The position numbers and the translations under genes are program-made. The notes under the pieces are model-generated. The model was not told the origin of the DNA and did no database searches. It saw nothing but the letters and a program-made list of their open reading frames with translations. Below, one piece after another: positions 10,238 through 51,894 of a DNA stretch of 64,000 bases. Origin of the DNA: Pseudoglutamicibacter albus (GTDB lineage: Bacteria; Actinomycetota; Actinomycetes; Actinomycetales; Micrococcaceae); the NCBI RefSeq assembly GCF_031458175.1, contig NZ_JAVDXX010000001.1, positions 558,001 through 622,000 of the forward strand, in the 5' to 3' direction. Numbering within the stretch: position 1 is the stretch's first letter; the number at the start of each line of letters is the position of its first letter.

Positions 10238-11208
10238 TGGTCGATCCGCTCTCGAATGACGTCCCGGTGAGCCTTGCCGGTGCGAGTTTTGCCCGCGTCA
10301 CCGCGGGCGCTGTCCCGTTTCTGATCAGCACGGCAGCGACCGTGAGCGAAGCCGAAGCCCAGTGGCTGTGCGACGGCTCCGCTGGGCTCGGTGCGGCAGG
10401 CGTGATCACGGTGTCTCAACAAGGGGACAGCGTAGGAGCTAATACTGGCGCATGGCACTGCGTTCTGACGGGGGCATCAGGGGCCCCGGTTCCTGAGCTA
10501 GAGCCCGATGCGGCACTAGCGGTGGCCGCCTACCTCGATGAGGCTGGTCAGTTGGGCGCGGGCACGCGGCTCGAATTCGGTTCGGGTGAGGCATACGTGG
10601 TCTCGCGTTCGCGGGGTAACTATAAGGTCGCTGGGGTGCGGTGGTCGTTCGCGTTCCCGCAGCAGGCCCAAGCAAAAGCCAGTGACGGCACGGTCCAGGC
10701 TGAGGGTGTACCGGTGGCCCGTCCGTGCCTCACGATGACCGTTGGCGCGCCGGTTTCTGTGGTTGCGCTCGCGGATGTGTCCGAGCTTGACCGGCTACGT
10801 TTGGATGAGCGCGGCCCGCAGCTGGATTCCGAGGTGCTTGAGCGTTCGTCGACGAGCTTCGTTGTTCCGCATGATCCGCTGGTCGAACGCGGTATCGCTG
10901 CGGTGTCGATGCGTTTCTATCATGCGCACGATGCGTTAGCAGGCAACAGCGGCGACACTGCCAGCATCAGTATGGCAGGGAGGCGGCTTTCGCGCGAATA
11001 CGGTTCGAGTGTGGCTGCCGCGGTCGCGGGATCGGTTGCGTTCCAGTACTGGGCAGGCTCCGGTAGGGACATCGCGGAAGGCTGGGCGGTGAACCAGCCA
11101 TCAGCGCTCGTGGGGGTCCGGCTTGAGCCGGGGTCCGCATCGAACGCTTCCGGAACAGCGCAGGCAACGGGGCCTGCGCGCGTCATCGCGAAGATCCAGC
11201 TGCGCTAG
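10237..11208 (+). CDS. dapF: Diaminopimelate epimerase-family protein lacking both catalytic cysteines
   Basis: A 323-residue intact frame following miaA, the usual DapF site in actinobacteria. Its C-terminal half aligns with DapF in pattern (SFVVPHDPLV..GIAAVSMRF, FQYWAGSG, NQPSALVGVRLEPG, SGTAQATGPARVIA). However, the N-terminal GTGNDF motif reads TAGAVPF. The first active-site region (NADGS-x-AEMCGNG in the family) reads LTGASGAPVPELEPD at about 77-91. The second (ERG-x-GET-x-x-CGTG) is replaced in 226-265, with YGSS where CGTG is expected. No cysteine remains in either motif. The family is therefore recognisable but epimerase activity is unlikely; a pseudoenzyme or decaying gene is possible. 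Confidence 0.75.
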   Translation: MVDPLSNDVPVSLAGASFARVTAGAVPFLISTAATVSEAEAQWLCDGSAGLGAAGVITVSQQGDSVGANTGAWHCVLTGASGAPVPELEPDAALAVAAYLDEAGQLGAGTRLEFGSGEAYVVSRSRGNYKVAGVRWSFAFPQQAQAKASDGTVQAEGVPVARPCLTMTVGAPVSVVALADVSELDRLRLDERGPQLDSEVLERSSTSFVVPHDPLVERGIAAVSMRFYHAHDALAGNSGDTASISMAGRRLSREYGSSVAAAVAGSVAFQYWAGSGRDIAEGWAVNQPSALVGVRLEPGSASNASGTAQATGPARVIAKIQLR

Positions 11209-11234
11209 CCCCATTCAGCTGCGTTAGCCTCATA
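11197..11234 (+). repeat. 19-bp tandem duplication across the dapF-like stop codon
   Basis: Units 11197-11215 and 11216-11234 are adjacent and differ at only a few positions. The first contains the real TAG stop (11206-11208) and the second repeats it. Confidence 0.8.
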
Positions 11235-11250
11235 AAGCCGAGCTCGCGGT

Positions 11251-11859
11251 TCAAGCCGGGCGGGCCACGCGCAGAATCCGGAACTCTTTCTTTCTCGCGT
11301 AGCGTTCAACGCTCCACTCTCCCGGCAGGTTTTCGGCGAGCCATTTCTGTAGGGAATCTGAGCCGAGGTTTTTCTGGACCACAAGATACGCCTCGCCGCC
11401 CGGGTTGAGGCGCGGAAGCCACGTCATGAGGATCTCGTGGAGGACCTGCTTACCCACACGGATCGGTGGGTTGGACCAGATGAGGTCGAAACTTACATCG
11501 GCCGGCACCGCCTCCGGTGTGCACACCGTGACGTTGCGAGCGCCGGCATCGGCCGCGTTGAGACGGGCCAGATCCATCGCGCGTTCGTTGACATCGACAC
11601 CCCACACCTCAGCCTGTGGAGAAGTCAGCGCGAGCGTGAGCAAGATGGGTCCCCAACCGCACCCGATGTCGAGCATCGTTCCGTGGGCCCGCGGGCTAGG
11701 AGCTTCATCCAATAAAATCTGGGTTCCCTTATCCACACCGGCGGGGCTGAAAATGCCCGAAGCGGTATGAACGTCAAGTTCCCGGTCAGCCAGAGAAACC
11801 GTAATGCGCTTGCGTGCCTCGGGAGTCACCGGTTCCGCTGTGAAGTAATGCTCGGCCAT
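11251..11859 (-). CDS. Class I SAM-dependent methyltransferase, RsmC-like
   Basis: A 202-residue methyltransferase of the MTS (RsmC/RlmG) type. Motif I is MLDIGCGWGPILL and the catalytic motif is WSNPPIRVGK (N-P-P-I), typical of guanine-N2 rRNA methyltransferases. Start at 11859 (MAEHYFTAEP) is preferred over the longer frame. On the minus strand, TAGGCT lies 8 bases before this ATG and there is no Shine-Dalgarno, giving a near-leaderless message. The gene is shorter than E. coli RsmC, having only one methyltransferase domain. It is convergent with the dapF-like gene. Confidence 0.82.
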   Translation of the reverse strand: MAEHYFTAEPVTPEARKRITVSLADRELDVHTASGIFSPAGVDKGTQILLDEAPSPRAHGTMLDIGCGWGPILLTLALTSPQAEVWGVDVNERAMDLARLNAADAGARNVTVCTPEAVPADVSFDLIWSNPPIRVGKQVLHEILMTWLPRLNPGGEAYLVVQKNLGSDSLQKWLAENLPGEWSVERYARKKEFRILRVARPA

Positions 11860-11914
11860 GGAACACAAGCCTAACCGAGGCACAGGGCCGCAGGTGGGTC
11901 GCTGCGGCACGGTC

Positions 11915-11963
11915 GCGACGACACCGGCGCTACGGCAGGGTTGCGACGACACCGGCGCTACGG
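11915..11963 (+). repeat. 21-bp direct repeat with 28-bp period
   Basis: The same 21-base sequence (GCGACGACACCGG...CTACGG) occurs at 11915-11935 and 11943-11963. It lies in the intergenic region between the divergent methyltransferase gene and hflX. Confidence 0.85.
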
Positions 11964-12036
11964 TCTAGCTGAGCCCGCTACAGCTTAGAATGGTGGGGAG
12001 CCCGCAGGCCGCGGGACCACGCAATGTCAGGAGACC

Positions 12037-13847
<1,811 letters not shown>

Positions 13848-13851
<4 letters not shown>

Positions 13852-15950: not shown

Positions 15951-15980
15951 CGCGGCGCTCATGGAAACGGCGCGGCGATA

Positions 15981-16030
15981 CGGGCCCTGCGCTTAAGAGG
16001 GGTTGCCTGAACGGGCCTGCGCTTAGAGGG
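15981..16030. repeat. Imperfect ~20-bp direct repeat at the lexA 3' end
   Basis: CGGGCC(C)TGCGCTTA(A)GAGGG occurs at 15981-16001 and again at 16012-16030. The second copy contains the lexA stop codon on the minus strand. It lies between the convergent helicase gene and lexA. Confidence 0.75.
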
Positions 16031-16859
16031 AGCGCAGCACGGATACGACGCGGCCCATGATTTGTGCGTGGTCACCCAGGATGGGTTCGTATTGCGAGTT
16101 CTGAGGCAGTAGCCACGTGTGGCCGTCGCGTTGACGGAAGGTCTTCACGGTGGCTTCGTCATCCAGCAGCGCTGCGACAATCTCGCCGTTCTGTGCGGTG
16201 TTTTGGCGGCGGACCACAACCCAGTCGCCATCGCAGATCGCGGCGTCGATCATCGAGTCCCCAGAGACTTTGAGCATGAACAGTTCGCCGTGCCCTACAA
16301 GCTGACGTGGCAGGGTCACGACGTCTTCAACGTGTTGTTCAGCAAGGATCGGTCCACCTGCCGCGATACGGCCGACGAGTGGGATCTCAGCCGAGTCTTC
16401 CCCGCCGCGAGCCTTGAACTGCGTGATGTTGGCGGAGTCGGTGGCGTTGGAGGATTGTGCGGTGCTGGCGGAGTCTGTGGTGTTTGGGAGTTTGGCTGCA
16501 CCGGGCATTGGTGTGACCTCCGCTAGGCCGGCGCCTGTCGCTGCTCCGAGTGCGGCCGCACTAGCTGTGGTGGAGTCCTTCTGGGTCACGTCCAGGGTGG
16601 ACGGATAGAGAACCTCGAGCGCGCGGGGGAGTTTGGGGTCGCGGCGAATCCAACCGAGCTTGTTGAGCTGCTGCAGTTGGTGTGTCACCGAAGACAGCGA
16701 TTTCAACCCGACCGCGTCACCGATCTCACGCATCGTGGGCGGATACCCCTGATTCTCTAAGAAAGACTCGATGCACTTCAGCACAGAGCGTTGACGCGAA
16801 GTCAGCGGTTTCGAAGGGCGTGCGGGCTGGGTGTCCATCGACGGTGTATCGGTGCTCAT
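16023..16859 (-). CDS. lexA: SOS repressor LexA
   Basis: A 278-residue LexA. The N-terminal winged helix (about 20-85) starts [36 protein letters not shown]. The peptidase has Ser202 (SGDSM) and Lys239 (EATVK), and the cleavage pair is Ala167-Gly168 (GRIAAGGP). The spacing A-S 35 and S-K 37 equals that of E. coli LexA. The linker between the two domains is about 60 residues longer than usual and rich in Ala, Thr and Asn ([33 protein letters not shown]). Start ATG 16859 follows AAGGATGG. Two overlapping LexA boxes at 17043-17070 lie upstream, so it is probably autoregulated. Confidence 0.97.
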
Positions 16860-16986
16860 TCGTTTCCCATCCTTCGTTTCCCATCCCTGGTTCGCTACCC
16901 ATGGCCATCAATGTGTCAGGGGGTTGTTCTTGACTGTAATGACAGTCCACATCGGTAGTTACAGCCTATATGGCTTCGCCGCATAT

Positions 16987-17002: not shown

Positions 17003-17042
17003 AGACTATTGAGCAGATTCGGAGATGTGTGCTAGAAATATA

Positions 17043-20401: not shown

Positions 20402-21208
20402 ATGACTGATCACAAAGCAACTGCGCACACGCCAACTGGGCACACGCCAGCCGAGAATCAGAAACTCCTTTTGTTCCCTGCGGTGGACATCGTCAACGGG
20501 CAGGCGGTGCGCCTGACCCAAGGGGAAGCCGGCACCGAAACAGATCACGGCGACCCGTTCGATGCGGCTTTGCGCTGGCAAGAAGCCGGCGCGGAATGGA
20601 TCCACGTGGTTGACTTGGATGCCGCTTTCTCGCGCGGGGATAACCGTCCAGTGCTCAGACGCATCGCGACCGAGCTGGATCTCAAGGTTGAGCTTTCCGG
20701 CGGTATTCGAGACGATGAGTCACTGGATCGCGCACTCGAATGGGGTGCAGCACGGGTCAACATCGGCACCGCGGCACTAGAGAATCCGGAATGGACCGCC
20801 AAAGCCATCGAACGGGTAGGCGAGGCGATCGCGGTAGGCCTCGACGTGCGTGGCACCACGCTCTCTGGCCACGGCTGGACCAAAGACGGCGGGGACCTGT
20901 GGGATGTGCTCGCTCGCCTCGATGATGCCGGGTGCGCCCGCTACGTCGTCACTGATGTGACCCGTGATGGAACCATGACCGGCCCCAATACCGAACTGCT
21001 CGCCGACATCGCGAAGCACACTGATAAGCCGCTGATCGCATCCGGTGGCATGTCCACCCTCGATGACCTACGCGCCCTACGCGCGATGGTCGGTAAAGGC
21101 GTAGAAGGCGCGATCATTGGCCGCGCACTCTATAACGGCGCGTTCACCCTCGAAGACGCGCTCGCCGTCGCACGCGGCGAGAAGTCAACAGAAACGAGAA
21201 GTACGTAG
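20402..21208 (+). CDS. hisA: HisA/PriA phosphoribosyl isomerase
   Basis: A 268-residue (beta/alpha)8 barrel. It isomerises ProFAR in histidine synthesis; in many actinobacteria the same protein (PriA) also acts as phosphoribosylanthranilate isomerase for tryptophan. [18 protein letters not shown] holds the first catalytic Asp, [13 protein letters not shown] is the first phosphate loop, [17 protein letters not shown] holds the second Asp and [12 protein letters not shown] is the second phosphate loop. Whether it is dual-function cannot be told without seeing if trpF exists. GAGAGAG precedes the ATG. The stop lies inside a triple 17-bp repeat (21179-21229). Confidence 0.93.
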
Positions 21209-21229
21209 AGGCGAGAAATAAACCGAGCT
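21179..21229 (+). repeat. Three 17-bp tandem units across the hisA stop
   Basis: Units begin GAGAA at 21179, 21196 and 21213, each 17 bases, moderately diverged. The middle unit holds the hisA stop (TAG 21206-21208) and the third ends just before the next gene's ribosome-binding site. Confidence 0.7.
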
Positions 21230-22212: not shown

Positions 22213-23535
22213 ATGACCCAGGCGGGTGTTGGGGAGCCGAGTGGTGTTTTCCAGCGTTATGCACGGGTTCTGAGGCGCCCGCATGTGCCAACTCTTTTGT
22301 TGGTTGGTGTTTTTGGTCGTTTGCCGCATTCGGCGGCCGCGATCCTGTTGACGTTGCATGTCCGTAACGGCCTGCAGATGGATTTCGCCTCGGCTGGTCT
22401 GGTCACGGCGATGCTCACGATTGGTGTAGCGATCGGTTCGCCGTGGCGTGGCCGGATCGTGGATATCAAGGGTGTTCGTCGCGCGGTTTTGCCGTCGATC
22501 GTGGTTGAGGCGGGCGCGTTCGGTGCCGCGCCTTTTGTGGGTTTCCAGGTGTTGCTGGTGCTCATGTTTGTGGCGGGCCTGTTTTCGTTGCCGGTTTTCA
22601 CGGTGGTGCGGCAGTCGATGGGGGTTGTGGTTCGCGGGCCTGATCGCACTACGGCGTTCGCTCTGGATTCGATGACCACTGAGCTGGTGTTTGTGATTGC
22701 ACCGGGCGGTATCAGTGTTCTTGCTACGGCGATTTCAACGACGGCTTCGCTGCTTTTGGTGGGCGCGCTGGTGGTGTTCGCTGGCGTGATTTTGGTGGTC
22801 ACGAACCCGCCGACGCGTTCTTCGCAGTTGCCGTCTGCCCCGCGGGAGGCGGTCGATGATTTGGCGGCTCCTTCGCACCCTAAGGATGCTTCGTCGGTTC
22901 CTGCGATCACGGGTGCGATCCCGGTGGTTCCGTTGCCGCAGCCTCAGCCTCGGAAGCGTCGTTTCATGCCGTGGCTGAGTATTTCGGCGGCTGCGATGAT
23001 GGTCATGGCGTTGGGCGCTGGTATGGCGCTTGCCGGTACTGAGGTCGCGTTGGTGGGCTTCAACGAGACCCTGGGTGGTGGCGGTGACACGCTGTGGGTC
23101 ATGTATGGCGTGTGGTGTTTCGGCTCGCTCGTGGGCGGGTTCGTGTATGGCGCGTTGTCTCGAAAGTTCGATCCGTTCGCGATCATCATTGTTTTGGGTC
23201 TCACGCTGGTTCCGGTCGCGTTCTCGTTGACGTTGGCGTTGATTTCGATCGCGCTTTTCGCGTCTGGTTTCTTTATTGCACCGTTGATGACGGCAGCCTC
23301 GGAGCGGTTGACGGAGGCTGTCCCGGAGCGTAACCGCGGCCAGGCGATGGGCTTATATGGTTCGGCGATGACTGCCGGCACGGCGGCTGGTACGCCGTTG
23401 GTGGGCGTCATGTTGGATGTGGGCGGCCCCACTGTTGCGATCTGTGCGTTGGCTGGCGTCGCGGTTGCTACCGGTGTTGTTGCGATGGTGCTGCGCCAGA
23501 TTCGTCGTCGCCGTCGCCGGATGGCTTCATCCTGA
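22213..23535 (+). CDS. Major facilitator superfamily transporter
   Basis: A 440-residue membrane protein with about 12 hydrophobic helices in two blocks. They are split by a cytoplasmic Pro/Ser-rich loop (about 198-250) ending in basic RKRRFM. WRGRIVDIKGVRRAVLPS is the loop 2-3 signature of MFS exporters. The substrate is unknown. Located 3 bases after the SseB-family gene, so co-transcribed. It ends with an Arg-rich tail (RQIRRRRRRMASS), and its stop lies in a short tandem repeat. Confidence 0.88.
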   Translation: MTQAGVGEPSGVFQRYARVLRRPHVPTLLLVGVFGRLPHSAAAILLTLHVRNGLQMDFASAGLVTAMLTIGVAIGSPWRGRIVDIKGVRRAVLPSIVVEAGAFGAAPFVGFQVLLVLMFVAGLFSLPVFTVVRQSMGVVVRGPDRTTAFALDSMTTELVFVIAPGGISVLATAISTTASLLLVGALVVFAGVILVVTNPPTRSSQLPSAPREAVDDLAAPSHPKDASSVPAITGAIPVVPLPQPQPRKRRFMPWLSISAAAMMVMALGAGMALAGTEVALVGFNETLGGGGDTLWVMYGVWCFGSLVGGFVYGALSRKFDPFAIIIVLGLTLVPVAFSLTLALISIALFASGFFIAPLMTAASERLTEAVPERNRGQAMGLYGSAMTAGTAAGTPLVGVMLDVGGPTVAICALAGVAVATGVVAMVLRQIRRRRRRMASS

Positions 23536-23574
23536 ACCAGCAACATCTAGCCAGCAACGCTGAACCGGCAACGC
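23532..23574 (+). repeat. ~14-bp tandem units across the MFS stop codon
   Basis: Three diverged units (CTGAACCAGCAACAT, CTAGCCAGCAACG, CTGAACCGGCAACGC). The first includes the TGA stop at 23533-23535. Confidence 0.65.
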
Positions 23575-26060: not shown

Positions 26061-26100
26061 TGTGACACCGCGAATGTGACACTGCGAATGTGACACGGCG
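26061..26100 (+). repeat. 14-bp tandem repeat downstream of rplT
   Basis: TGTGACACCGCGAA, TGTGACACTGCGAA and a partial third unit TGTGACACGGCG run without gaps, 30 bases after the rplT stop. Each unit carries TGTGAC. Confidence 0.85.
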
Positions 26101-26197: not shown

Positions 26198-27055
26198 ATG
26201 GAGATCATGGATAATCCGCGCGCAGACCGAGTCCGGGCGGCCGCGCACCTAGGGAAGGCCGCGGGCCGGAAGAAGTCGGGGGAGTTCCTGGTTGAGGGGC
26301 CGCAGGCTGTACGGGAAGCGATTGCCCAACATCGAACCCAGCGCGGCCTTGTGCGCGAGGTATTCGTTACTGAGCAGCGGATGGAACGTGAACCTGAGCT
26401 CGCCCAGGTCGCCGACGCACGGGTCAACGTTGTGACTGAGCGCGTCCTGGCCGCGATCGCGGACACGCAGTCCCCGCAGGGCGTGGTTGCCCGTTGCCGC
26501 ATCCCGCACGTGAGCTTGAAACAAGCGCTGACGCCGAAGACGAGCCTGGTCGCGGTGCTGGGGCGGGTCCAGGACCCCGGTAATGCTGGCACCATCATCC
26601 GTGCGGCTGACGCCGCGGGTGCGGACGCGGTGGTTGCGCTGAAGGGCAGCGTGGATGTTTTCTCGCCTAAAGTGGTCCGGTCCACGGTAGGCTCGTTGTT
26701 CCATGTTCCGGTTGTCACGGGTATTGAGCTTGATGAACTGACCGAGCACCTGACCCGTTGCGGGATCGTTTTGCTAGCGGCTGACGGCGGCGGGGATCAC
26801 GATTTGACGGTGCTTGAAGACGATGCGGCCGCCCGCCAGCACGGCGTGACCGTTAGGGGCTCGATGAAGCGGCCGTCCCTGACGACGGCGACCGCGTGGC
26901 TGTTCGGTAATGAAGGCCAGGGGATCTCGGAAGCGGAACGGGCGGCGTCCTTCGCTACGGTCTCGATCCCTCTGTATGGGCAGGCGGAATCCTTGAATGT
27001 TTCGACGGCCGCGGCCTTGTGCCTCTACGCATCGGCACGTGCTCAACGCAGCTGA
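26198..27055 (+). CDS. TrmH/SpoU family RNA 2'-O-methyltransferase
   Basis: A 285-residue SPOUT methyltransferase, most likely acting on 23S rRNA ribose, as for the gene found between rplT and pheS in actinobacteria. The N-terminal substrate-binding domain has EFLVEGPQAVREAI. The catalytic domain has VLGRVQDPGNAGTIIRAADAAGADAVV (motif 1), LFGNEGQGIS (motif 2) and VSIPLYGQAESLNVSTAAAL (motif 3). ATG 26198 has GGGAGGA 7 bases upstream; the longer frame from 26156 is not used. Its stop lies in a 23-bp tandem repeat. The exact target nucleotide is unknown. Confidence 0.92.
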   Translation: MEIMDNPRADRVRAAAHLGKAAGRKKSGEFLVEGPQAVREAIAQHRTQRGLVREVFVTEQRMEREPELAQVADARVNVVTERVLAAIADTQSPQGVVARCRIPHVSLKQALTPKTSLVAVLGRVQDPGNAGTIIRAADAAGADAVVALKGSVDVFSPKVVRSTVGSLFHVPVVTGIELDELTEHLTRCGIVLLAADGGGDHDLTVLEDDAAARQHGVTVRGSMKRPSLTTATAWLFGNEGQGISEAERAASFATVSIPLYGQAESLNVSTAAALCLYASARAQRS

Positions 27056-27084
27056 AGGCTTGTGCCCAACGCAGCTGAAAGCTC
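27039..27084 (+). repeat. 23-bp tandem duplication across a stop codon
   Basis: Units 27039-27061 and 27062-27084 differ at only a few positions. The first contains the methyltransferase TGA stop (27053-27055) and the second repeats it. Confidence 0.88.
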
Positions 27085-27647: not shown

Positions 27648-27774
27648 TCCAGTCCTGGTGAGCCGTGTCCTCTTGAGTATGAGCCGAGCCTATTGAGCAT
27701 CTGTGCGTTGTGTGCAGGCATACGCCAGTAGGGGGATTTCCACTCGATTCGACGTCATCCTGCCGGGGGATCTG

Positions 27775-27909
27775 CTGCAATGTTCCTTCTGTGAACATGG
27801 AGGCATCAACGAGGTTATAAGCCTTCCCCTATGGCCGTTTCAGGTTGCAGACGTTGAGATATGCAGCTCTGCAACCTCCGGCCTTGGCTATCGAGTGAAG
27901 CAGGAGATC
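27775..27909 (+). promoter_or_regulatory. Conserved leader of lipoprotein paralog 1
   Basis: First of four related leaders (others at 28598, 29655 and 30727). They share a TTCTGT-AACAT core, GGCATCAACGAGG, TATAAGCC and CCTATGG. Copies 1 and 2 also have a 9-bp inverted repeat (GGTTGCAGA 27843-27851, TCTGCAACC 27868-27876). TATAAG is a plausible -10 element. Confidence 0.6.
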
Positions 27910-28599
27910 ATGAAGTTCACTAAGTCTTTGAGTGCAGTGACCGCAGTACTTTTCGCTGGCGCTTTAGCGTTGACCGGCTGCTCTGCAGGGGGTGCTGAGA
28001 AGACGCAGGAGAAGCCGACGGCTAATAAGTTCACGGATAATATTCACATCGAAGCTCCAGACGATGCGAAGAAACCCCTTGTAGCGAATGTTAGGTCCAA
28101 GGTCGAAGTCACGGATGAGACCCTCGAGAAATTGGGTAAGGAACATGGGGTAGACAACCCGGACGCTAAACGCACGCTTGAAGGTGATATGGAAGAGATG
28201 ATTAAGGCCGTCGATTTAGGCGAGGACCAGGTTCGTCTCACCGCAGAGTCCCACAACGTAGCCCGCATTGAAGTAGACCGCATCCCGATGGACAAGCTCT
28301 ACAAAATGCTGAGGACTAAGGTTTCCTATACCGATAAGGGAACATATCGGGTGGAGATTCGTCCAATGGTTCTGGAGCCCGTTGAGGAAGATAACCTGAC
28401 GACAGAGCTGAACGTGACCCTGCCGGAGCCGATCGAGAAAGCGAACGTTAGCGGGAAGGTCGACGGGAACACGGTGACATGGACGAGCGATAACTATGCT
28501 GAGGCAATGGAGGGCGTAGAAATCGTACCAGGCGAAATGTTTGATACCGACGGGAAAACCCTTACCGCTGAAACCCGTCCAACAAACACCGATAAGTAA
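27910..28599 (+). CDS. Lipoprotein, paralog 1 of 4 (LppM-like)
   Basis: A 229-residue secreted lipoprotein. The signal peptide MKFTKSLSAVTAVLFAGALALTGC ends in lipobox LTGC (Cys24), so the mature protein is lipid-anchored outside the membrane. The body (about 60-220) has VRSKVEVTDETLEKL, RVEIRPMVLEP, LPEPIEKANVSGKVDGN and TVTWTSDNY, a beta-rich pattern like the LppM/DUF3153 family. Function is unknown. It ends ETRPTNTDK, just where paralogs 3 and 4 continue into a membrane helix. The longer frame from 27703 has no support. Confidence 0.82.
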   Translation: MKFTKSLSAVTAVLFAGALALTGCSAGGAEKTQEKPTANKFTDNIHIEAPDDAKKPLVANVRSKVEVTDETLEKLGKEHGVDNPDAKRTLEGDMEEMIKAVDLGEDQVRLTAESHNVARIEVDRIPMDKLYKMLRTKVSYTDKGTYRVEIRPMVLEPVEEDNLTTELNVTLPEPIEKANVSGKVDGNTVTWTSDNYAEAMEGVEIVPGEMFDTDGKTLTAETRPTNTDK

Positions 28600-28721
28600 A
28601 CACAAACATCAAGGCATCAACGAGGCTATAAGCCTTCCCTCTAGGGCCGTTTCAGGTTGCAGACGCTGAGATATGCAGCTCTGCAACCTTCGGCCTTGGC
28701 CATCGAGTGAAGCAGGAGATC
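28598..28721 (+). promoter_or_regulatory. Conserved leader of lipoprotein paralog 2
   Basis: Nearly identical to leader 1 over about 100 bases, including the 9-bp inverted repeat; the duplication clearly included the upstream region. Confidence 0.6.
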
Positions 28722-29414
28722 ATGAAGTTCACTAAGTCTTTGAGTGCAGTGACCGCAGTACTTTTCGCTGGTTCTTTAGCGTTGACCGGCTGCTCTACGG
28801 AGGGGGCTGAGAAGACGCAGGAGAAGCCGACCGTTGATAAGAACATATATAACGTTGAAGTGGAAGCTCCAGACGGTGCGAAGAAGCCCCTTGTGGCGAA
28901 TGTTAGGTCCAAGGTCGAGGTCACGGACGAGACCATCGAGAAAGAAGCCAAAAAACATCCGAAGGATGACATCAAGGATGCTAAAGGCACACTTAAGAAA
29001 CAGATAAAAGCCCTGCCTCAGGTCATCGGTGTGAGTGAGGACCAGGTCCGGCTCACTTCAGAGTCCCACAACGTGGCCTACGTTGAAGTGGACCGGGTCC
29101 CGATGGACAAACTCTACAAAATGTTGAGGATCAAGGCTTCCCATACCGATAAGGGAACATACCGGGTGGAGATTCGTCCGATGCTTCTGGAACCCGTGGC
29201 GGAAGGAAACGTTAGGGATGAGGTGAACGTGACCCTGCCGGAGCCGATCGAGAAAGCGAACATTAGCGGGAAGGTTGACGGGAACACGGTGACGTGGACG
29301 AGCGATAACTATGCCGAGGCAATGGAGGGTATAGAAATCGTACCAGGCGAAATGTTCGATACCGACGGGAAATCCCTCATCGCTGAAACCCGTCCAACAA
29401 ACACGGATAAGTAG
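28722..29414 (+). CDS. Lipoprotein, paralog 2 of 4 (LppM-like)
   Basis: A 230-residue lipoprotein almost identical to paralog 1 at the signal peptide (MKFTKSLSAVTAVLFAGSLALTGC) and at the C-terminus. The central part (about 70-110) has diverged, with a Lys-rich insert EKEAKKHPKDDIKDAKGTLKKQ. Same LppM-like body and same truncated end ETRPTNTDK. A strong terminator follows (29441-29469). Confidence 0.82.
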   Translation: MKFTKSLSAVTAVLFAGSLALTGCSTEGAEKTQEKPTVDKNIYNVEVEAPDGAKKPLVANVRSKVEVTDETIEKEAKKHPKDDIKDAKGTLKKQIKALPQVIGVSEDQVRLTSESHNVAYVEVDRVPMDKLYKMLRIKASHTDKGTYRVEIRPMLLEPVAEGNVRDEVNVTLPEPIEKANISGKVDGNTVTWTSDNYAEAMEGIEIVPGEMFDTDGKSLIAETRPTNTDK

Positions 29415-29440
29415 ACACCGGCCTGACTTTCGCTGGGTGT

Positions 29441-29469
29441 GGGGTGAGTGCGTTGTGCGCACTCACCCC
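29441..29469 (+). terminator. Terminator after lipoprotein paralog 2
   Basis: A perfect 12-bp stem (29441-29452, 29458-29469) with loop TTGTG, followed by TTGG. Confidence 0.8.
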
Positions 29470-29537
29470 TTGGCGTTGCAGTGGCGGTGCATCCGCGGCA
29501 ACCGCAACGCCAGAGCTTCCCATGCTCACACCATCAT

Positions 29538-29553
29538 TAGAACATATATTCGA
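29538..29553. promoter_or_regulatory. LexA-box-like palindrome
   Basis: TAGAACATATATTCGA matches the actinobacterial SOS consensus TCGAACATATGTTCGA at 14 of 16 positions. It lies 240 bases before lipoprotein paralog 3. Confidence 0.5.
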
Positions 29554-29792
29554 ATCACTGTCACGCTGAGAATTACTGTCACTTTGAACGAAACGCTGTC
29601 ACCGCAAAGAAAGGTGCGGGCACCTTCACAGTCGGGGTCATCCTTACGGTGGACCTACTGCTCTGTGCTTTCTGCAAACATGAAGGCATCAACGAGGCTA
29701 TAAGCCGTCCCCCCTATGGCCTTTCGGGCATGGATGCTGAGGTGTTCAGCTCTGTAGCGTTCCGCCCCCGCCGTCAAACGAAGTAGGAGATC

Positions 29793-30641
29793 ATGAGGTT
29801 CACCAAGTCTTTCCGTGCCGTGACCGCGGCGCTTTTCGCTGGCGCTTTAGCTTTGACCGGCTGTTCCGCAGGGAGTGCTGAGAAAACGCAGGAGAAGCCG
29901 ACCGCTAATAAGTACACGGAGAACATCCAAATCGAAGCTCCAGACGGTGTGGATGGACCCCTTATCGCGAATGTTAGGTCGAAGACCGAGCTCACGGATG
30001 AGCTCCTCGAGGAACTGGGTAAGGAGCATGGCGTAGACAATCCGGACACTAAACGCACGCTTGAAGATGAGGTGACAACCTGGCCTGAGGACCTCGGCGT
30101 GAGAGAAGATCAGGTCCGTCTCATCGGCGAGTCTCATAATGTGGCCTTCATTGAGGTAGATGGGCTCTCGATGGAAGGGCTCTACGACATGTTCAGGGCC
30201 AAGGTTACCTATACCGATAAGGGAACATACCTCGTGGAGATTCGTCCAATGCTTGTGGCTCCGGAAGAGGAACTTAACCTTACGACAGAGGTGAGCGTTA
30301 CCGTGCCGGAGCCGATCGCGGAAGCGAACGTTAGCGGGAGAGTCAACGGGAACACGGTGACGTGGTCGAGCGATAACTTCGCCGAGGCAATGGAGGGCGT
30401 CGAGATTCAACCGATGATGAACGAAGCCGACGGGAAAACGCTCACCGCTGAAACCCGTCCCGCAACCACGGTTGATCAGACACCGATCTGGCTCTCAGCT
30501 GTGATCTTCGTGCTCGGTGTCATCGCGGCCGCTCTGATGGTTGCTCTGGCCGTCACTCCAAGAAAGAAAGCATCGAAGCCGGACACCGGAGCGGACACCG
30601 GAGCGGACACCGGGGCCGATGCCGCTGAGGGCAACGCATAA
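29793..30641 (+). CDS. Lipoprotein with C-terminal membrane anchor, paralog 3 of 4
   Basis: A 282-residue protein with signal peptide and lipobox LTGC (Cys24). The LppM-like body is as in paralogs 1 and 2 (VRSKTELTDELLEELGKEHGVDNPD, GTYLVEIRPM, EPIAEANVSGRVNGN). After ETRPATTVDQTP it adds a transmembrane helix (about 230-252, WLSAVIFVLGVIAAALMVALAV) and a short basic/acidic cytoplasmic tail with TGAD repeats. It would thus be anchored at both ends. The C-terminal module is nearly identical at DNA level to that of paralog 4. Confidence 0.82.
   Translation: MRFTKSFRAVTAALFAGALALTGCSAGSAEKTQEKPTANKYTENIQIEAPDGVDGPLIANVRSKTELTDELLEELGKEHGVDNPDTKRTLEDEVTTWPEDLGVREDQVRLIGESHNVAFIEVDGLSMEGLYDMFRAKVTYTDKGTYLVEIRPMLVAPEEELNLTTEVSVTVPEPIAEANVSGRVNGNTVTWSSDNFAEAMEGVEIQPMMNEADGKTLTAETRPATTVDQTPIWLSAVIFVLGVIAAALMVALAVTPRKKASKPDTGADTGADTGADAAEGNA
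30588..30623 (+). repeat. 12-bp coding repeat (TGAD units)
   Basis: GACACCGGAGCG is repeated about three times and encodes the TGADTGADTGAD tail of lipoprotein paralog 3. Confidence 0.75.
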
Positions 30642-35374: not shown

Positions 35375-35399
35375 CGTGCCGAACGGCTAGTGAAGTAAG

Positions 35400-35429
35400 T
35401 AGCTAATTCAGCGTGTAGCTAATGCAGCG
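35400..35429 (+). repeat. 14-bp direct repeat after pheT
   Basis: TAGCTAATTCAGCG (35400-35413) and TAGCTAATGCAGCG (35416-35429), 26 bases after the pheT stop. Confidence 0.75.
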
Positions 35430-45083: not shown

Positions 45084-45108
45084 AGTTTTTCAAGGAGTAC
45101 ACCTGTTG

Positions 45109-45735
45109 ATGTCGAAGGATGCTGTCATGAGTCAGCCAGCGCAGATGCGTGAGAGAACGCAAGCGGGGGATGCGGCTAGTGAGCCGCGCAAGCCGGTGGA
45201 AGAACCGGTAGGGGAATCTATTGAGCAGCTGCTGGATCGTTTGTGTGCGATCATCCCGGACCACCCCGAGCCTGGCATCACGTTCCGTGATTTGACCCCG
45301 GTTTTCGCTGATGCTGAAGGGCTGCATCGGGTAGTGGATGCGTTAGCTGAGCCGTTCGCTGGTCAGTTCGATGCGGTGGCTGGTTTGGAAGCGCGTGGGT
45401 TCTTGTTGGCGTCCGCGGTCGCGTATGCGGCGGGTGTGGGCCTGATGACGGTGCGTAAGGGCGGCAAGCTCCCGCGTGAGGTGTATTCGCGGGAATATCA
45501 GCTGGAGTACGGCACTGCCTCCCTTGAGGTTCACCGTGACGCTTTACCTAAGGGCGGCCGGGTCTTGTTAGTGGACGATGTGCTAGCCACCGGCGGCACC
45601 GCAGCTGCGGCTGCCTCTTTGGTTGAGCAGGTCGGCGGCACTGTTGCTGGTGTTGCTGTGGTCCTGGAGTTGGATGGTTTGGGTGGCCGCGAGAAACTCG
45701 ATCCGTGGAAGGTGCACGCTCTGCAGCGCGTCTGA
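45109..45735 (+). CDS. apt: Adenine phosphoribosyltransferase
   Basis: A 208-residue purine salvage enzyme (adenine + PRPP to AMP). PRPP motif VLLVDDVLATGGTAAAA at about 151-167; DHPEPGITFRDLTPVF and GLEARGFLLASAVAYA are family motifs. AAGGAG (45092-45097) precedes; a TTG at 45106 or ATG 45127 could also be used. The first 30 residues are additional to the usual ~170-180 length. Confidence 0.93.
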   Translation: MSKDAVMSQPAQMRERTQAGDAASEPRKPVEEPVGESIEQLLDRLCAIIPDHPEPGITFRDLTPVFADAEGLHRVVDALAEPFAGQFDAVAGLEARGFLLASAVAYAAGVGLMTVRKGGKLPREVYSREYQLEYGTASLEVHRDALPKGGRVLLVDDVLATGGTAAAAASLVEQVGGTVAGVAVVLELDGLGGREKLDPWKVHALQRV

Positions 45736-45787
45736 ACCGTAACCCACGGGTGCCGAACTCTCTGAAACGGGTTCGGTGACACACGAA

Positions 45788-45829
45788 AGAAGGTGGCCCG
45801 GTCGTCATACGACGACCGGGCCACCTTCT
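45788..45829. terminator. Bidirectional terminator after apt
   Basis: A perfect 19-bp stem (45788-45806, 45811-45829) with loop ATAC between convergent genes. Confidence 0.87.
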
Positions 45830-45842
45830 ATCTTCCCACGGA

Positions 45843-46757: not shown

Positions 46758-46999
46758 TGTTGATCTCACGGTTCCTTTCGTTCCGTGGGATGAACCGCCA
46801 AATGAGCGATGCATCGAGGGTGCTCGTCTAAACAAGAGTATCAAGTACGAGTTTTCGTCAGTTTCGTAGACTAACGTTACGGGGTTGCTGAATAGAAATG
46901 AAAAATAAACGAACCCCGCCGCAAAATTCTCAGCCTAGGCACATCTTCTGCGAGTCAGCCACACAGGCGCGCCGCACTCAGTGAGGACCGCTCACCACC

Positions 47000-47035
47000 G
47001 GACGCTAGCTAGTCATTGGACGCTGGCTAGTCATT
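47000..47035. repeat. 18-bp tandem duplication across a stop codon
   Basis: Units 47000-47017 and 47018-47035 differ at one base. The second contains the stop codon (47027-47029, minus strand) and last codons of the lipoprotein gene. Confidence 0.88.
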
Positions 47036-47938
47036 GGACCAGGGAACTGTTTCGTCTTCCTTTGGCTGTGGAATCAGGGCGGTTTGGTTGAAGCGGCTGA
47101 ACTGGATGATGTGCCCGTCGATGCGGGTGTCCACGGCAACTAACGCGTGGGAGTCCACATCGATGTAGAGCACTACGTCGTCGGCGCCGACGTATTTGAA
47201 CACGTCCTGGCCGTTGAGTTGGATCTTCTCTGCTTCCTCGGTGAACGAGTCCCAGTCGATGGTTGAGAGCATTTGGTCGCTCAGTTTCACGGGGTCGAGG
47301 TTCTTGAGCTCGGCTTCCTGTGGCGTCATCGTCACGTAGTGGTCGAGGATGTCGTCGACGTTTTCGTCTTGACCGTTTTCACCTCCGGCGCCGAGGCTAC
47401 TCCAGAAGACGCGGTCGCCTTTGAGGTAGATGGTCTCATCGTCGAGGATGAGGTTCATTTGGCCGTCCGCGCGGGTGCCGCTCACATGGCCTTCTAGCGC
47501 CATAGCGTGGGCGGGTTGGCGGTGGAAGACACCCACGAAGTCGATCGTGAGCCCTTTGAACATCGTGGTTCCGTCAGCTTTATACGTTGACATCGTGGCA
47601 AGCGTTTTCAGGATGTCGAAGCGAATGTCAGCGATCTGCGGAGCCTGCACACCGTCTTCGCCATCTTCTGCATCCGTTGTGGAGCTTGCCGAAGATGCAG
47701 CTGGTTTCTTCGTCTCCGAGGGGGCCTTCGATGTCGGGGCTTTGGCTTGGGCCGATTCCGGCGTAGCTGAACCTTCAGTTGGGTTATCAGAGCCTTCCGT
47801 GTGTGCGGGCGTTTCGTCAGGCGCGTCTTCGTGTGCCGCGGCGCAGCCGGTCAGCACACCCAGCATAGGCACACTCATAACAAGCAGTGCAGCCACACAT
47901 CGTGCGGTGAACTGTCGTGGCGCGCGAAACTCTGTCAC
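47027..47938 (-). CDS. Secreted lipoprotein with LppX/LprG-like domain
   Basis: A 303-residue lipoprotein. Signal peptide from GTG 47938 (VTEFRAPRQFTARCVAALLVMSV..), lipobox LTGC. AAAGG lies 7 bases before this GTG. A long Ser/Pro/Lys/Glu-rich linker precedes the folded domain (TMSTYKADGTTMFKGLTIDFVG, GQMNLILDDETIYLKGDRVFWSSLG, QDVFKYVGADDVVLYIDVDSHALVAVDTRIDGH). This parallels the neighbour at 45843-46757, suggesting old paralogs. Function is unknown. Just upstream is an 18-bp tandem array. Confidence 0.78.
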   Translation of the reverse strand: MTEFRAPRQFTARCVAALLVMSVPMLGVLTGCAAAHEDAPDETPAHTEGSDNPTEGSATPESAQAKAPTSKAPSETKKPAASSASSTTDAEDGEDGVQAPQIADIRFDILKTLATMSTYKADGTTMFKGLTIDFVGVFHRQPAHAMALEGHVSGTRADGQMNLILDDETIYLKGDRVFWSSLGAGGENGQDENVDDILDHYVTMTPQEAELKNLDPVKLSDQMLSTIDWDSFTEEAEKIQLNGQDVFKYVGADDVVLYIDVDSHALVAVDTRIDGHIIQFSRFNQTALIPQPKEDETVPWSND

Positions 47939-47939
47939 T

Positions 47940-48024
47940 TCAGACCTTTCCGCCACATCAGAACTTTCTGTCACGTTGGAACTCTCCGCCACATCGGAAA
48001 TCTCTGTCACGTAGGAACTGCTTA
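47940..48024 (-). repeat. 18-bp tandem array at the lipoprotein 5' end
   Basis: About 4.5 units of 18 bases, alternating two variants (minus strand GTGACAGA.. and GTGGCGGA..). Each offers an in-frame GTG and several a purine-rich stretch before it. Translated it would read VTEISDVAESSNVTESSDVAERSE. Confidence 0.8.
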
Positions 48025-48178
48025 TCAAGTGTATGTGAGGGCATGCGGACAAGCGCCTCGAGGCGGGCATGATGTGTGCGTGAGCGTAGAATGGACGGTC
48101 GCGCATTTTATTCGCTCATCCACAGCGAGGCGCGGACTTTGCAGGCAGACGCAGGCTCTATAGGTAGGGGGATATCGC

Positions 48179-50479
48179 GTGCAACAGCCACGGTCTGACA
48201 GCACGGAGCAACAGTATGTTTCACAACTGTATGCCCGGGTTGATCAGTTGCGCACCCAGAAGGTTGAACAGCTGAAGAAGGTTCAAGCCACGGGCGCGAT
48301 TGGTAGCGTTCAGAACGCTTCAGAACGTGACTCTTTTGCCGCCCTGTACGAGGACCGGATCGCTCAGCTGGAAGCCGTTGAGCATCGTCTGGTTTTCGGG
48401 CGCATCGACCGTAGCGAGGACATTGAGTGGCGCGTGGGCGAACCGGTCATTGAACAGGCGCGCGCCCGTTATATCGGCCGTATCGGTTTGACTGATGAGC
48501 AGCAGCAACGGTTGCTCATTGACTGGCGTGCCCCTGAGGCTGCGACGTTCTATCAGGCGACCCCGTTTGAACCGTTGGGGGTTGCTCGCCGCCGCCACTT
48601 GAGCCTCAAGGGGCGCACGGTGGCCGCGTTTGAGGACGATGTGCTGGACCCTGATCTCGCGACCGCCGAGGGTGCCTCACATTCCGATGGGGCACTCATC
48701 GCGGCCTTGAACGCTCCTCGAACGGGCAAGATGGGCGATATCGTCGCCACGATTCAAGCGGAACAGGACCGGATCATACGCGCCCCGATGCGCGGCGTCA
48801 CGGTCGTGCAAGGCGGGCCTGGCACCGGCAAGACTGCCGTCGCGCTGCATCGCGCCGCATACCTCTTATATGAGCAGCGTGAACGCCTGGGCCGCGCGGG
48901 CGTATTGATCGTGGGTCCATCGCAGACGTTCATGTCTTATATCGAACGCGTGCTGCCCTCGTTAGGCGAGACCGGCGTTGTTATGTCCACTGTCTCGACC
49001 CTCTACCCAGGCGTTGACGGTGTGCCGGAAACCAACCGGCAGGCGGCCCGTCTCAAGGGTTCCCTGCACATGGTCGAGGTTATGAAACGCGCGGTGGCGC
49101 AACGTCAACGCACCATCCCAGGTAAACGCAAGCTCACCATCGAAGGCCTCACTGTCACGCTAAAACCTAAGACCATCAAGCGGGCGCTCGCCGTGGCCCG
49201 TGCGAGCCGCCAGCCGCACAATAAGGCCCGTGAGGTGTTCGTGGACCACGCGGTCGCGGAGATCCTGGAGCTGTACCAAGCCGCTGTTGACAGCGATGGT
49301 GTGCAGGGCTCCGAGCAGGAAACCGCGGCGTTGGAGCGCGATGTTCGTGCCAGCCGCGATGTGCGTGTTGCCTTGAATCTGTGCTGGATGCCGCTGACCC
49401 CTGAACAGTTGGTGAGGGACTTGTTCAGCAAACCAGAGATCCTGGATGCGGTTCTACCGCGGCTCTCGTCTGTCTCGCGTGAGGCATTGTTGCGGGAGCC
49501 GGGCGCTGCGTTCACGGAGGCGGATGTTCCTTTGCTGGATGAGGCTGCGGAGCTGTTGGGTCCGTTGCCGGTAGCCTCGAGTGCGCAGCGCGCTGAGAAA
49601 CTGCAACGCGAACGCGATGTTGAGAACGCGAAGAAAGCGCTTGAGAACGTCAACGCGGAGCTTGAAGAGATCGGCGTCGACGGTGTGGTCGATGAAAATA
49701 TGCTGCTTGAGTTCAACGAGCACCGCGCTACGGGTTTGAGCGCGGTCGAGCAGGCCGAGCGCGACCGGGAATGGACCTACGGGCACGTGATTGTGGACGA
49801 GGCCCAAGAGCTCACGGCGATGCAGTGGCGGGTTCTGATGCGGCGCGGACCGCTGAAGTCCTTCACGATTGTGGGCGATATTGCGCAGGCCACGACCGTG
49901 GGTTCGGCTTCCTCGTGGGCGGATGCGCTGCAGCCGCATGTGGGGAAGCGGTACCGCTTGGAGGAACTCAGCGTGAACTATCGCACGCCTCGGCAAGTGG
50001 TTGAGCTCGCAGAGAGGCTCGCACGAGCTGAGGGCCTACCGATTTCTGCGGCTCAGGCTGTGCGCGATGCCGACACTGACCCGATGGTGCGTGAAGTCGC
50101 AGACTCCGAGCAGGTGCTCACGCATGCCGGCGATGCCGTGGCTCGCTTCATGGACAAGACAAGCCAGGGCCTCATCGCAGTTATTTGTCCGCAGGCTGAA
50201 CAGACTGCCGCGATGGAGGCTTTATCGCAGCGGTTTGATGCCCAGGTGGGAACTGGTGCCGGCGATGCGGCGGCCGGCCAGCGCATCGTGGTGTTGACTA
50301 CGGATCAAGCCAAGGGCCTCGAGTTCGATGCGGTGGTTGTGCTGGAACCCAACGCGATCGTGGCCGAAGATCACACCGCGGCAGGGCTGTATGTGGCGAT
50401 GACCCGCACAACGCAGGACCTTGTGGTGATCGCCCCTGAGGGCGATCTGCCGGCGGCGTTACAAACTGAAGATCAATAG
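48179..50479 (+). CDS. helD: HelD-like UvrD-family ATPase (RNA polymerase recycling factor)
   Basis: A 766-residue superfamily 1 protein. The N-terminal ~110 residues form a helical arm (QLYARVDQLRTQKVEQLKK) typical of HelD. IGRIGLTDEQQQRLLIDWRAPEAATFYQ is a HelD hallmark. Walker A is GGPGTGKTAVALHRAAYLLY (about 214-233), Walker B YGHVIVDEAQELTAMQWR, and the C-terminal TTDQAKGLEFDAVVVL and VAMTRTTQDLVV are motifs V and VI. HelD/HelR pulls RNA polymerase off DNA and in some actinobacteria protects it from rifampicin. GTG start behind GGGGGA. No rifampicin-associated element was recognised upstream. Confidence 0.9.
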   Translation: MQQPRSDSTEQQYVSQLYARVDQLRTQKVEQLKKVQATGAIGSVQNASERDSFAALYEDRIAQLEAVEHRLVFGRIDRSEDIEWRVGEPVIEQARARYIGRIGLTDEQQQRLLIDWRAPEAATFYQATPFEPLGVARRRHLSLKGRTVAAFEDDVLDPDLATAEGASHSDGALIAALNAPRTGKMGDIVATIQAEQDRIIRAPMRGVTVVQGGPGTGKTAVALHRAAYLLYEQRERLGRAGVLIVGPSQTFMSYIERVLPSLGETGVVMSTVSTLYPGVDGVPETNRQAARLKGSLHMVEVMKRAVAQRQRTIPGKRKLTIEGLTVTLKPKTIKRALAVARASRQPHNKAREVFVDHAVAEILELYQAAVDSDGVQGSEQETAALERDVRASRDVRVALNLCWMPLTPEQLVRDLFSKPEILDAVLPRLSSVSREALLREPGAAFTEADVPLLDEAAELLGPLPVASSAQRAEKLQRERDVENAKKALENVNAELEEIGVDGVVDENMLLEFNEHRATGLSAVEQAERDREWTYGHVIVDEAQELTAMQWRVLMRRGPLKSFTIVGDIAQATTVGSASSWADALQPHVGKRYRLEELSVNYRTPRQVVELAERLARAEGLPISAAQAVRDADTDPMVREVADSEQVLTHAGDAVARFMDKTSQGLIAVICPQAEQTAAMEALSQRFDAQVGTGAGDAAAGQRIVVLTTDQAKGLEFDAVVVLEPNAIVAEDHTAAGLYVAMTRTTQDLVVIAPEGDLPAALQTEDQ

Positions 50480-50528
50480 TCCGGTTGGTAGCATGACCAA
50501 TGTGACCGAAAAGGAGAAAGCCGACGTA

Positions 50529-51827
50529 ATGGCACAGACGAACGACCCCTCATTTGACAACATTTTCCAGGAGCTGAAGTGGCGCGGCCTCATGTACGTG
50601 TCCACCGATGAGGAGGCCCTGGAGAAGGTGCTGGCAGGGGAGCCTATTACGTATTATTGTGGCTTCGATCCGACCGCCCCGTCGTTGCACTTGGGTAACT
50701 TGGTGCAGATCCTGGTTCTGCGCCGCCTGCAGTTGGCGGGGCATAAGCCGTTGGGGCTTGTGGGTGGCTCGACCGGTTTGATCGGCGACCCTCGTCAGAC
50801 GGCCGAGCGTGTTTTGAACACCCCGGAGACGGTTCAGGAATGGGTTAAGCGTTTGCGTTCCCAGATTGAGCGTTTTCTTTCCTTCGAGGGCGATAACGCC
50901 GCACGCATGGTCAACAACCTCGACTGGACCAAGGACCTCACGGCGCTAAGCTTCTTGCGCGATGTGGGTAAGTATTTCCGCGTGGGAACCATGATCCGTA
51001 AAGAGACCGTTGCTAAGCGGTTGGCTTCGGATGAAGGTATTTCTTACACCGAGTTCTCCTACCAAGTCCTTCAGGGCATGGACTACCTGAACCTCTACCG
51101 CGAATACGACTGTGTTCTGCAGACGGGTGGTTCGGATCAATGGGGCAACCTGACCTCCGGCGCGGATCTGATCCGCCGTGTTGAGGGTGTGTCTGTCCAC
51201 GCGTTCGGCACCCCGCTCATCACGAACTCTGATGGCTCTAAGTTCGGTAAGTCCGAAGGCAACGCGATCTGGCTGGATGCCGAGATGTGCTCGCCGTACA
51301 CGTTCTATCAGTTCTGGCTCAACACTTCGGATGCGGATGTGATCGACCGTTTGAAGGTCTTCACGTTCATGCATCGGGCGGAGATTGAAGAGTACGCGAA
51401 GAAGGTTGAAGACGAGCCGTTCCGCCGTGAAGCGCAGAAGCGCCTCGCATGGGAAGTGACTTCGTTGGTTCACGGCCCGGAGGCAACCCAAGCAGCGATC
51501 GATGCTTCCGAGGCCCTGTTCGGTTCCGGTGAGCTTGCGGCGTTGGATGCTGGCACGGTCGATGCTGTGTTTGCTGAGCTGTGTGGCGCTGAGGCTGCAA
51601 GTGGCTCGAATATCGTTGATGTTCTGGTTGCCGCTGGCATCTCTAAGTCGAAGTCTGAAGCGCGCCGTTCGCTGGGTGAAGGCGCGATCAACGTGAACAA
51701 CGTCAAAGTGACTGACCCTGAGGCGACGTTCGAAACCGGTGAGGGCTTGGGTTCTGGTAGCGGCGCGGAGGACGTCCTGATTCTGCGTCGCGGACGCCGA
51801 ACGCTCGCTGCGGTTCGTTTGGTCTAA
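50529..51827 (+). CDS. tyrS: Tyrosyl-tRNA synthetase
   Basis: A 432-residue class I synthetase. HIGH motif is HLGN in CGFDPTAPSLHLGNL; KMSKS is KFGKSEGN; a C-terminal S4 domain (ISKSKSEARRSLGEGAINVNN) binds tRNA. Start 50529 (MAQTNDPSFDNIFQEL) fits the family length and has AAGGAG 12 bases upstream; in-frame ATG 50493 would add 12 residues. Its stop lies in a 31-bp tandem array. Confidence 0.96.
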   Translation: MAQTNDPSFDNIFQELKWRGLMYVSTDEEALEKVLAGEPITYYCGFDPTAPSLHLGNLVQILVLRRLQLAGHKPLGLVGGSTGLIGDPRQTAERVLNTPETVQEWVKRLRSQIERFLSFEGDNAARMVNNLDWTKDLTALSFLRDVGKYFRVGTMIRKETVAKRLASDEGISYTEFSYQVLQGMDYLNLYREYDCVLQTGGSDQWGNLTSGADLIRRVEGVSVHAFGTPLITNSDGSKFGKSEGNAIWLDAEMCSPYTFYQFWLNTSDADVIDRLKVFTFMHRAEIEEYAKKVEDEPFRREAQKRLAWEVTSLVHGPEATQAAIDASEALFGSGELAALDAGTVDAVFAELCGAEAASGSNIVDVLVAAGISKSKSEARRSLGEGAINVNNVKVTDPEATFETGEGLGSGSGAEDVLILRRGRRTLAAVRLV

Positions 51828-51894
51828 GTGGATTTGGGCTAAAGCGGCTTTGGTCTAAGTGGATTTGGGCTAGAGCGGCTTTGGGCTATGTGGC
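51818..51894 (+). repeat. 31-bp tandem repeat across the tyrS stop codon (2.5 units)
   Basis: Units 51818-51848, 51849-51879 and partial 51880-51894. Unit 1 holds the tyrS TAA (51825-51827) and unit 2 repeats the stop context almost exactly. Confidence 0.92.

Follow-up and report, generated by a model that had tools for sequence, protein, structure and literature searches.

Short tandem duplications across stop codons of Pseudoglutamicibacter probably reflect a frequent mutation kept where it is tolerated

Ten gene ends in a 64,000-nucleotide stretch of the Pseudoglutamicibacter albus genome (GCF_031458175.1, contig NZ_JAVDXX010000001.1, positions 558,001 to 622,000; here called the window) had been listed in an earlier note as carrying short tandem duplications across or beside the stop codon. 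Here, we show that such arrays are numerous, that they vary between two strains, that stops and spacers tolerate them whereas starts are depleted of them, and that within genes they have only periods divisible by three. We consider it probable that short tandem duplications arise at a high rate throughout the DNA and are then sorted by selection, and that they do not form a system of back-up stop codons. Under this explanation, short tandem duplication would be frequent in Pseudoglutamicibacter, with units of mostly 11–28 bp and most commonly near 16–18 bp. Duplications inside genes would survive only if the unit is divisible by three, and almost all of those spanning a start codon would be lost. 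A duplication spanning a stop codon would survive at any unit length, because translation would already end at the original stop, which the first copy retains, leaving the protein unchanged; spacers would be likewise tolerant. Stops would then be the harmless places for duplications that reach into genes, with the second stop a mere by-product. We infer that duplications at stops are neutral.

For each of the ten sites, a 120-bp stretch was aligned to itself without gaps and its score compared with those of 300 shuffles, and a stricter array scan, in which degenerate repeats drop below the threshold, was also run over the sites. The repeats are real: at eight of the ten sites, no more than one of the 300 shuffles reached the observed score. 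No shuffle did so at the dapF-like, hisA, MFS, TrmH-family, lipoprotein, tyrS and rplT sites, one did at pheT, 6 at lexA and 42 at the NUDIX gene, the last two being the weaker sites. The stricter scan places the stop inside an array at four of the ten. The dapF-like gene (10237–11208; the name is that of the earlier note, and no NCBIfam match was found) has a 19-bp tandem duplication at 11197–11233 (+ strand) that includes its stop at 11206–11208, and the TrmH-family gene a 23-bp tandem duplication at 27039–27083 (+) that includes its TGA stop (27053–27055). The gene that the earlier note called a lipoprotein has an 18-bp tandem duplication at 47000–47039 (− strand) including the stop 47027–47029, and in tyrS a 31-bp unit, equal to two 15–16-bp subunits, is repeated 2.5 times at 51818–51893 (+), including the TAA stop 51825–51827. 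Degenerate repeats under the threshold of that scan lie over the stop of hisA (hisA-trpF type, 20402–21208; period 17, 21179–21229, +, score 14) and at and past the stop of the MFS gene (22213–23535; period 14, 23533–23574, +, score 12). The arrays of rplT (a 14-bp unit in three copies, 26061–26100, +) and pheT (a 16-bp duplication, 35399–35429, +) begin 31 and 25 bp past the stop. The NUDIX repeat, a duplication of about 20 bp located 12 bp past the stop (27659–27697, +), is supported only with an indel allowed in the alignment (TRF score 55) and is not significant ungapped. At lexA (stop 16023–16025) the degenerate duplication at the gene end (15981–16030, −) is weak, and a clear 16-bp array is found at the lexA stop of a P. 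cumminsii-like relative (G001).

Copy number differs at five of the ten sites between this genome and P. albus ACRRA, in which the dapF-like site is 19 bp longer, rplT has one copy fewer, TrmH and pheT have a single copy and tyrS is 16 bp shorter; the lipoprotein array has equal length in both strains. The same process is seen elsewhere in the window: a perfect 14-bp duplication lies in a spacer away from any stop (16859–16886, no strand assigned; identical in ACRRA), and a coding counterpart, with in-frame 12-bp copies and hence a period divisible by three, lies within a gene at 30580–30613 (+; one copy fewer in ACRRA).

Arrays were then counted in a sample of 864 kb, made up of the window and 40 further 20-kb stretches. 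The sample contains 195 arrays, compared with 3–10 in five dinucleotide shuffles; 24 have a stop and 2 a start inside (the first count, over 664 stops and 667 starts, was 25 and 2; L032:1, a stretch-end artefact, was then removed from the stops). Stops inside arrays numbered 0, 0, 0, 1 and 0 in the shuffles, so the frequency at stops is far above that in shuffled sequence, contrary to one of the two outcomes that the earlier note had named as refuting. At a looser threshold, a segment of 178 kb has an array at 16 of its 120 gene ends, compared with 1 of 426 shuffled windows. The placements available to arrays are similar at stops (22,197 bp) and starts (23,014 bp), and starts are depleted, at 0.09 arrays per kb of placement (p = 2e-5 versus spacers). 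Whether stops exceed other intergenic DNA, failing which the note would regard its idea as refuted, depends on the spacers taken for comparison: at 1.08/kb they do not differ from all spacers of up to 400 bp together (0.84/kb, p = 0.35), but they hold approximately 1.9 times as many arrays as co-directional spacers (p = 0.05) and, with long uncalled stretches counted as spacer, 24 arrays against 13.9 expected (1.7-fold, p = 0.005). A modest extra preference for stops beyond tolerance may therefore exist. Stop-codon type showed no significant preference (TAG at 12 of 25 array stops versus 232 of 679, p = 0.20).

The comparison with ACRRA covered 346 kb at 97.4% identity. At 8 bp and above, there are 56 clean indels, of which 33 are changes in tandem copy number: 17 are coding (all divisible by three), 8 in spacers, 8 at stops and none at starts. 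Most of the copy-number differences look like gains, as judged by the spacing, which in the related species G002 is closer to the shorter allele at 15 of the 19 sites that could be compared (a rough test). Noncoding indel sizes have two peaks, with 30 of 1–4 bp, 1 of 5–9 bp and 28 of at least 8 bp. A two-strain control with seven pairs of relatives yielded no tandem noncoding indels in 17.4 kb of noncoding DNA, although this control is weak, because the divergence of most pairs exceeds what the flank filter allows; under the same filter, even the elevated pair of this genome and G002 gives only 1–3. In the only pair of relatives with equal divergence (L077–L086, 3.5 kb noncoding), neither of 2 indels was tandem. 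Between E. coli K-12 and RM14723 (10.5 kb), the clean noncoding indels of 8 bp and longer numbered 2, neither of them tandem, where the present rate predicts 4.5 tandem ones (P = 0.011).

The four Pseudoglutamicibacter genomes have 0.98, 1.04, 1.03 and 2.58 arrays per kb of noncoding DNA, compared with 0.12–0.79 in five other Micrococcaceae (pooled 0.38/kb, 13 in 34.3 kb; p = 0.0008 versus the genus), and none was found in 12.7 kb of noncoding E. coli DNA. Among 70 loci of relatives outside the genus (1,365 genes), arrays lie over 15 stops and 3 starts, which indicates that the asymmetry between stops and starts is general; the 54 spacer arrays in 279 kb of these loci are a lower bound, because genes were not called properly on several of them that are low in GC or distant, and the comparison of densities therefore rests on the genome figures above.

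The reading frame speaks against selection for back-up stop codons, the other reading offered in the earlier note, in which stop-spanning duplications are kept for the second stop that they supply. Only a period divisible by three puts the copied stop in frame. All 109 coding arrays have such periods, compared with 22 of 58 in spacers, 7 of 24 at stops and 0 of 8 among polymorphic stop arrays, with one third expected for both stop sets. G002 gives 5 of 7 in a small sample, and four non-independent genomes together give 23 of 54, not clearly above one third. At 23 of 25 array-bearing stops, the copy further downstream also reads as a stop, but this follows from the copying itself. In the accessible part of their survey, Ho and Hurst (2019) report no evidence that additional stop codons are under selection in eubacteria (PMC6764699), and we regard such selection as very improbable here. 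Gene ends could also be a mutational hot spot, perhaps one tied to transcription termination, on top of neutral tolerance; this would fit both the excess over co-directional spacers and the array coverage within them, 4.65% in the first 40 bp past the stop versus 1.72% mid-spacer. Orthologous stops of this genome and G002 also share arrays more often than expected (4 versus 1.7, p = 0.07), although with 1 versus 1.4 expected for this genome and G001, and 2 versus 0.9 for G002 and G001, array-prone stops common to species were unconvincing. Against a hot spot, divergent spacers contain no stops, yet arrays are no rarer in them (1.31/kb, p = 0.54) and cover 6.9% of their zone 40–100 bp upstream of starts, and in-frame arrays are common within genes; we consider it unlikely. 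The position at gene borders is reminiscent of a mobile or interspersed family of repeats that inserts there, as with the mycobacterial MIRUs, but this reading deserves almost no credence and was rejected. The units are unrelated between loci, as the earlier note had stated: a 10-mer is shared by 13 of 3,570 pairs of noncoding arrays, compared with 9–19 pairs for random noncoding segments, and the short alleles of ACRRA are one copy of the flanking sequence itself. The idea of hairpin-prone units was rejected as well, the mean folding energy being −2.06 for the units and −1.81 for noncoding segments taken at random (p = 0.72).

Frequent duplication sorted by selection leaves several routes for the molecular step. 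The note's reading of a repeated process kept where harmless is supported by the data above; its label of slippage is tentative, and replication slippage or template misalignment is our default guess for the enzymatic step. Birth by slippage predicts microhomology at the junctions, and at least 3 bp was found in 5 of 23 fresh two-copy arrays, compared with 9.9% in simulated duplications (rank test p = 0.26), and in 4 of 12 polymorphic arrays, compared with 11%, all four of which hold more than two copies. End-joining of staggered breaks after fill-in, a Ku-dependent route to small tandem duplications in mammals, would suit fresh duplications without significant microhomology, their clustered sizes and the two-peaked indel spectrum. 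However, Ku (PF02735) had no match in the Pseudoglutamicibacter genomes G000, G001 and G002, which refutes the classical Ku route there; it is present in 18 of 51 genomes searched, and relatives with high array density include genomes both with and without it. End-joining of this type is thus improbable, although a Ku-independent joining route may operate. A mismatch-repair or slippage-control defect through loss of NucS, SbcD or XseA (the ExoVII large subunit) was also rejected on predicted gene content, with NucS present in 7 of 7 examined and SbcD and XseA over the cut-off in G000, G001 and G002. It is conceivable, but doubtful, that every tolerant gene end in the genus is being rewritten by a duplication pathway new to science, independent of Ku and mostly of homology, whose unit length is fixed near 16–18 bp; the fixed length would perhaps come from the footprint of a primer, nuclease or polymerase, and the pathway would show as the separate peak in the indel spectrum.

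Since stop-spanning duplications are visible at any length without a change of protein, gene ends would keep a neutral record of a type of bacterial mutation that is hidden in coding DNA. With short tandem duplication among its leading classes of indel, the genus is a natural system for measuring the mechanism and rate of this mutation. Two size peaks in further strains, if confirmed, would point to a process distinct from ordinary 1–4 bp slippage. The duplications also place copies of C-terminal codons behind the stop, from which a later stop loss could yield a protein extension.

In the open-licence literature we found no description of this pattern for Pseudoglutamicibacter, which does not prove its absence elsewhere. 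It resembles additional (fail-safe, tandem) stop codons in that a second stop triplet follows the first, but the copies here are mostly out of frame and frame-keeping periods are not enriched. Like MIRUs, the arrays border genes with small effect on them; MIRUs, however, are one mobile-looking family and are said, in the available text of one source, to insert at start codons (PMC12548453), whereas the units here are unrelated and starts are avoided. Fill-in duplications in mammals are likewise short and without marked microhomology, but according to the accessible part of the report they require Ku80 and Pol alpha-primase (PMC8355091), and Ku was not found in Pseudoglutamicibacter. Minisatellites (VNTRs) arising by replication slippage between close direct repeats share the head-to-tail copies of 11–36 bp and the strain-variable copy number, but there the arrays are few and long, whereas here they are mostly two-copy, private to their locus and genus-wide. 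In five-genome alignments of E. coli, minisatellites make up 2–4% of small variable loci, as given in the available portion of that study (PMC2884548), compared with the 33 of 56 clean indels reported here, the two definitions being different.

Short tandem repeats (arrays) abound in the genome holding the window, a single contig of 2,222,850 bases. We sampled 864 kb, made up of the window and 40 stretches of 20 kb each, in which a purpose-built Markov gene finder called 709 genes; checked on a stretch of E. coli, the finder located 38 of the 39 annotated stops. A scan for periods of 10–45 bp returned 195 arrays, far more than in five dinucleotide shuffles, which gave 4, 5, 4, 10 and 3. After removal of one stretch-end artefact, 24 arrays contain a stop codon and 2 a start codon, the stop count depending on the edge rule (20 under a stricter rule; 25/679 under another way of counting codons). 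With a looser score, arrays occur at 16/120 gene ends, at 13/120 in G002, a related species of the same genus, and at 7/35 in G001, a P. cumminsii-like relative, against 1/426 shuffled windows. The stop-codon pattern is sound, and broader than the earlier note saw. The sample uses the three stops almost equally (TAA 222, TAG 232 and TGA 225 of 679 called stops), and a TAG share this high is unusual.

The adjacent repeats described at ten places in the window were read directly in the sequence. In ungapped self-alignment, no more than one of 300 shuffles scored as well at eight of them, and those at lexA and the NUDIX gene are weak (6/300 and 42/300 shuffles equally good), gaining strength once indels are allowed. 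Arrays strictly contain the stop at four of these places (the dapF-like, TrmH, lipoprotein and tyrS genes), and the hisA and MFS repeats are degenerate, older-looking copies. NCBIfam scores exceed the cut-off for hisA (hisA-trpF type), tyrS, lexA, pheT and rplT, and fall below equivalog cut-offs for the TrmH-family and NUDIX proteins; the dapF-like and lipoprotein proteins have no NCBIfam match, so those names are the earlier note's own. The 31-bp tyrS unit (window 51818–51893) comprises two 15–16-bp subunits and the second P. albus strain, ACRRA, has a 15-bp version; this is duplication on top of an earlier duplication. One called gene (51968–52483) separates tyrS from a downstream rRNA operon (53140–58592; 16S 53140–54669, 23S 55190–58300, 5S 58476–58592), which was masked in every count.

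The duplication process is active. The two strains share 97.4% identity across 345,658 aligned bases and, judged by the usual 95% species boundary, are probably one species; the best named matches of the TrmH protein are ACRRA (98%) and P. cumminsii (93%). Tandem copy changes account for 33 of the 56 clean-flanked indels of at least 8 bp, kept from 253; the 197 discarded sit in diverged or replaced stretches, for example near genome 516–520 kb. Unit copy number differs between strains at five of the ten places, ACRRA having 19 bp more at the dapF-like site and less at rplT (14 bp), TrmH (23 bp), pheT (16 bp) and tyrS (16 bp). In a rough comparison, the spacers having diverged, outgroup G002 is closer to the shorter allele at 15 of 19 anchored sites; one further site lacked anchors. 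Elsewhere, ACRRA carries a 42-bp segment, itself no tandem copy, at window 18730 (between 18689 and 18794). Adjoining stretches of about 0.8 kb at 27794–30568 match each other's ACRRA counterparts at 78–85% identity, and the genes there resemble paralogues arrayed in tandem. Outside the window, large indels that are not tandem cluster at about 516300–520300 of the contig, as though one of the two strains had undergone replacement or erosion there.

Whether stops are special depends on the comparison. Per available placement, arrays occur at 1.08/kb at stops, 1.31 in divergent, 0.97 in convergent and 0.56 in co-directional spacers, and 0.09 at starts; none spans a stop and start together (5.6 expected). 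Beyond 200 bp from a stop, array coverage falls to a coding-like 0.44%, which suggests missed genes, and spacers were therefore restricted to 400 bp, a limit chosen after this result had been seen. Enrichment at stops over other intergenic DNA is then not significant (stops versus all spacers, p = 0.35). It stands at p = 0.05 with co-directional spacers as sole comparison, where the first 40 bp past the stop are 4.65% array-covered versus 1.72% mid-spacer, and at p = 0.005 if long stretches with no called gene are treated as spacer (24 stop arrays versus 13.9 expected). Selection for back-up stop codons, one explanation offered earlier, is not borne out, because a second stop is in frame only when the period is a multiple of three. 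Such periods make up 109/109 coding, 7/24 stop and 22/58 spacer arrays, and 17/17, 0/8 and 1/8 of strain-polymorphic ones, as selection on reading frame alone predicts; the small G002 sample (5/7 stop arrays) points the opposite way.

The other explanation, a repeated process kept where harmless, is supported in the form of abundant duplication with selection on proteins and starts, and the account is mostly this ordinary one; slippage or template misalignment would be the default mechanism only. Units differ between genes and form no family, in keeping with the earlier view that this is not a mobile element, nor are they hairpin-prone. Unit lengths peak at 15–18 bp and are sparse above 24 (scan up to 120 bp). 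Static arrays under-detect short units, yet strain indels repeat the size pattern: noncoding indels number 30 at 1–4 bp, 1 at 5–9 bp and 28 at 8 bp or more, 16 of these last being tandem (lengths 11–28). Junction homology of at least 3 bp occurs in 5/23 fresh two-copy arrays versus 9.9% simulated (p = 0.26), and in 4/12 polymorphic arrays versus 11%, all four having more than two copies, with older copies inflating the measure. NucS, SbcD and XseA are present; Ku has no match in this genome, G001 or G002.

What goes beyond the ordinary explanation is why Pseudoglutamicibacter makes so many duplications of such size. Arrays per kb noncoding reach 0.98 here, 1.04 in ACRRA, 1.03 in G002 and 2.58 in G001 (3.5 kb only), versus 0.12, 0.16, 0.36, 0.37 and 0.79 in five other Micrococcaceae (13 in 34.3 kb; p = 0.0008 for this genome) and none in 12.7 kb of E. 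coli. Among the relatives' loci scanned, the highest density is that of Zafaria cholistanensis, where 3.6 kb of noncoding DNA contains 8 spacer arrays. Because some other relatives, Z. cholistanensis for example, have individual 20-kb loci that are equally high, the trait is raised in Pseudoglutamicibacter and graded across the family rather than unique to the genus.
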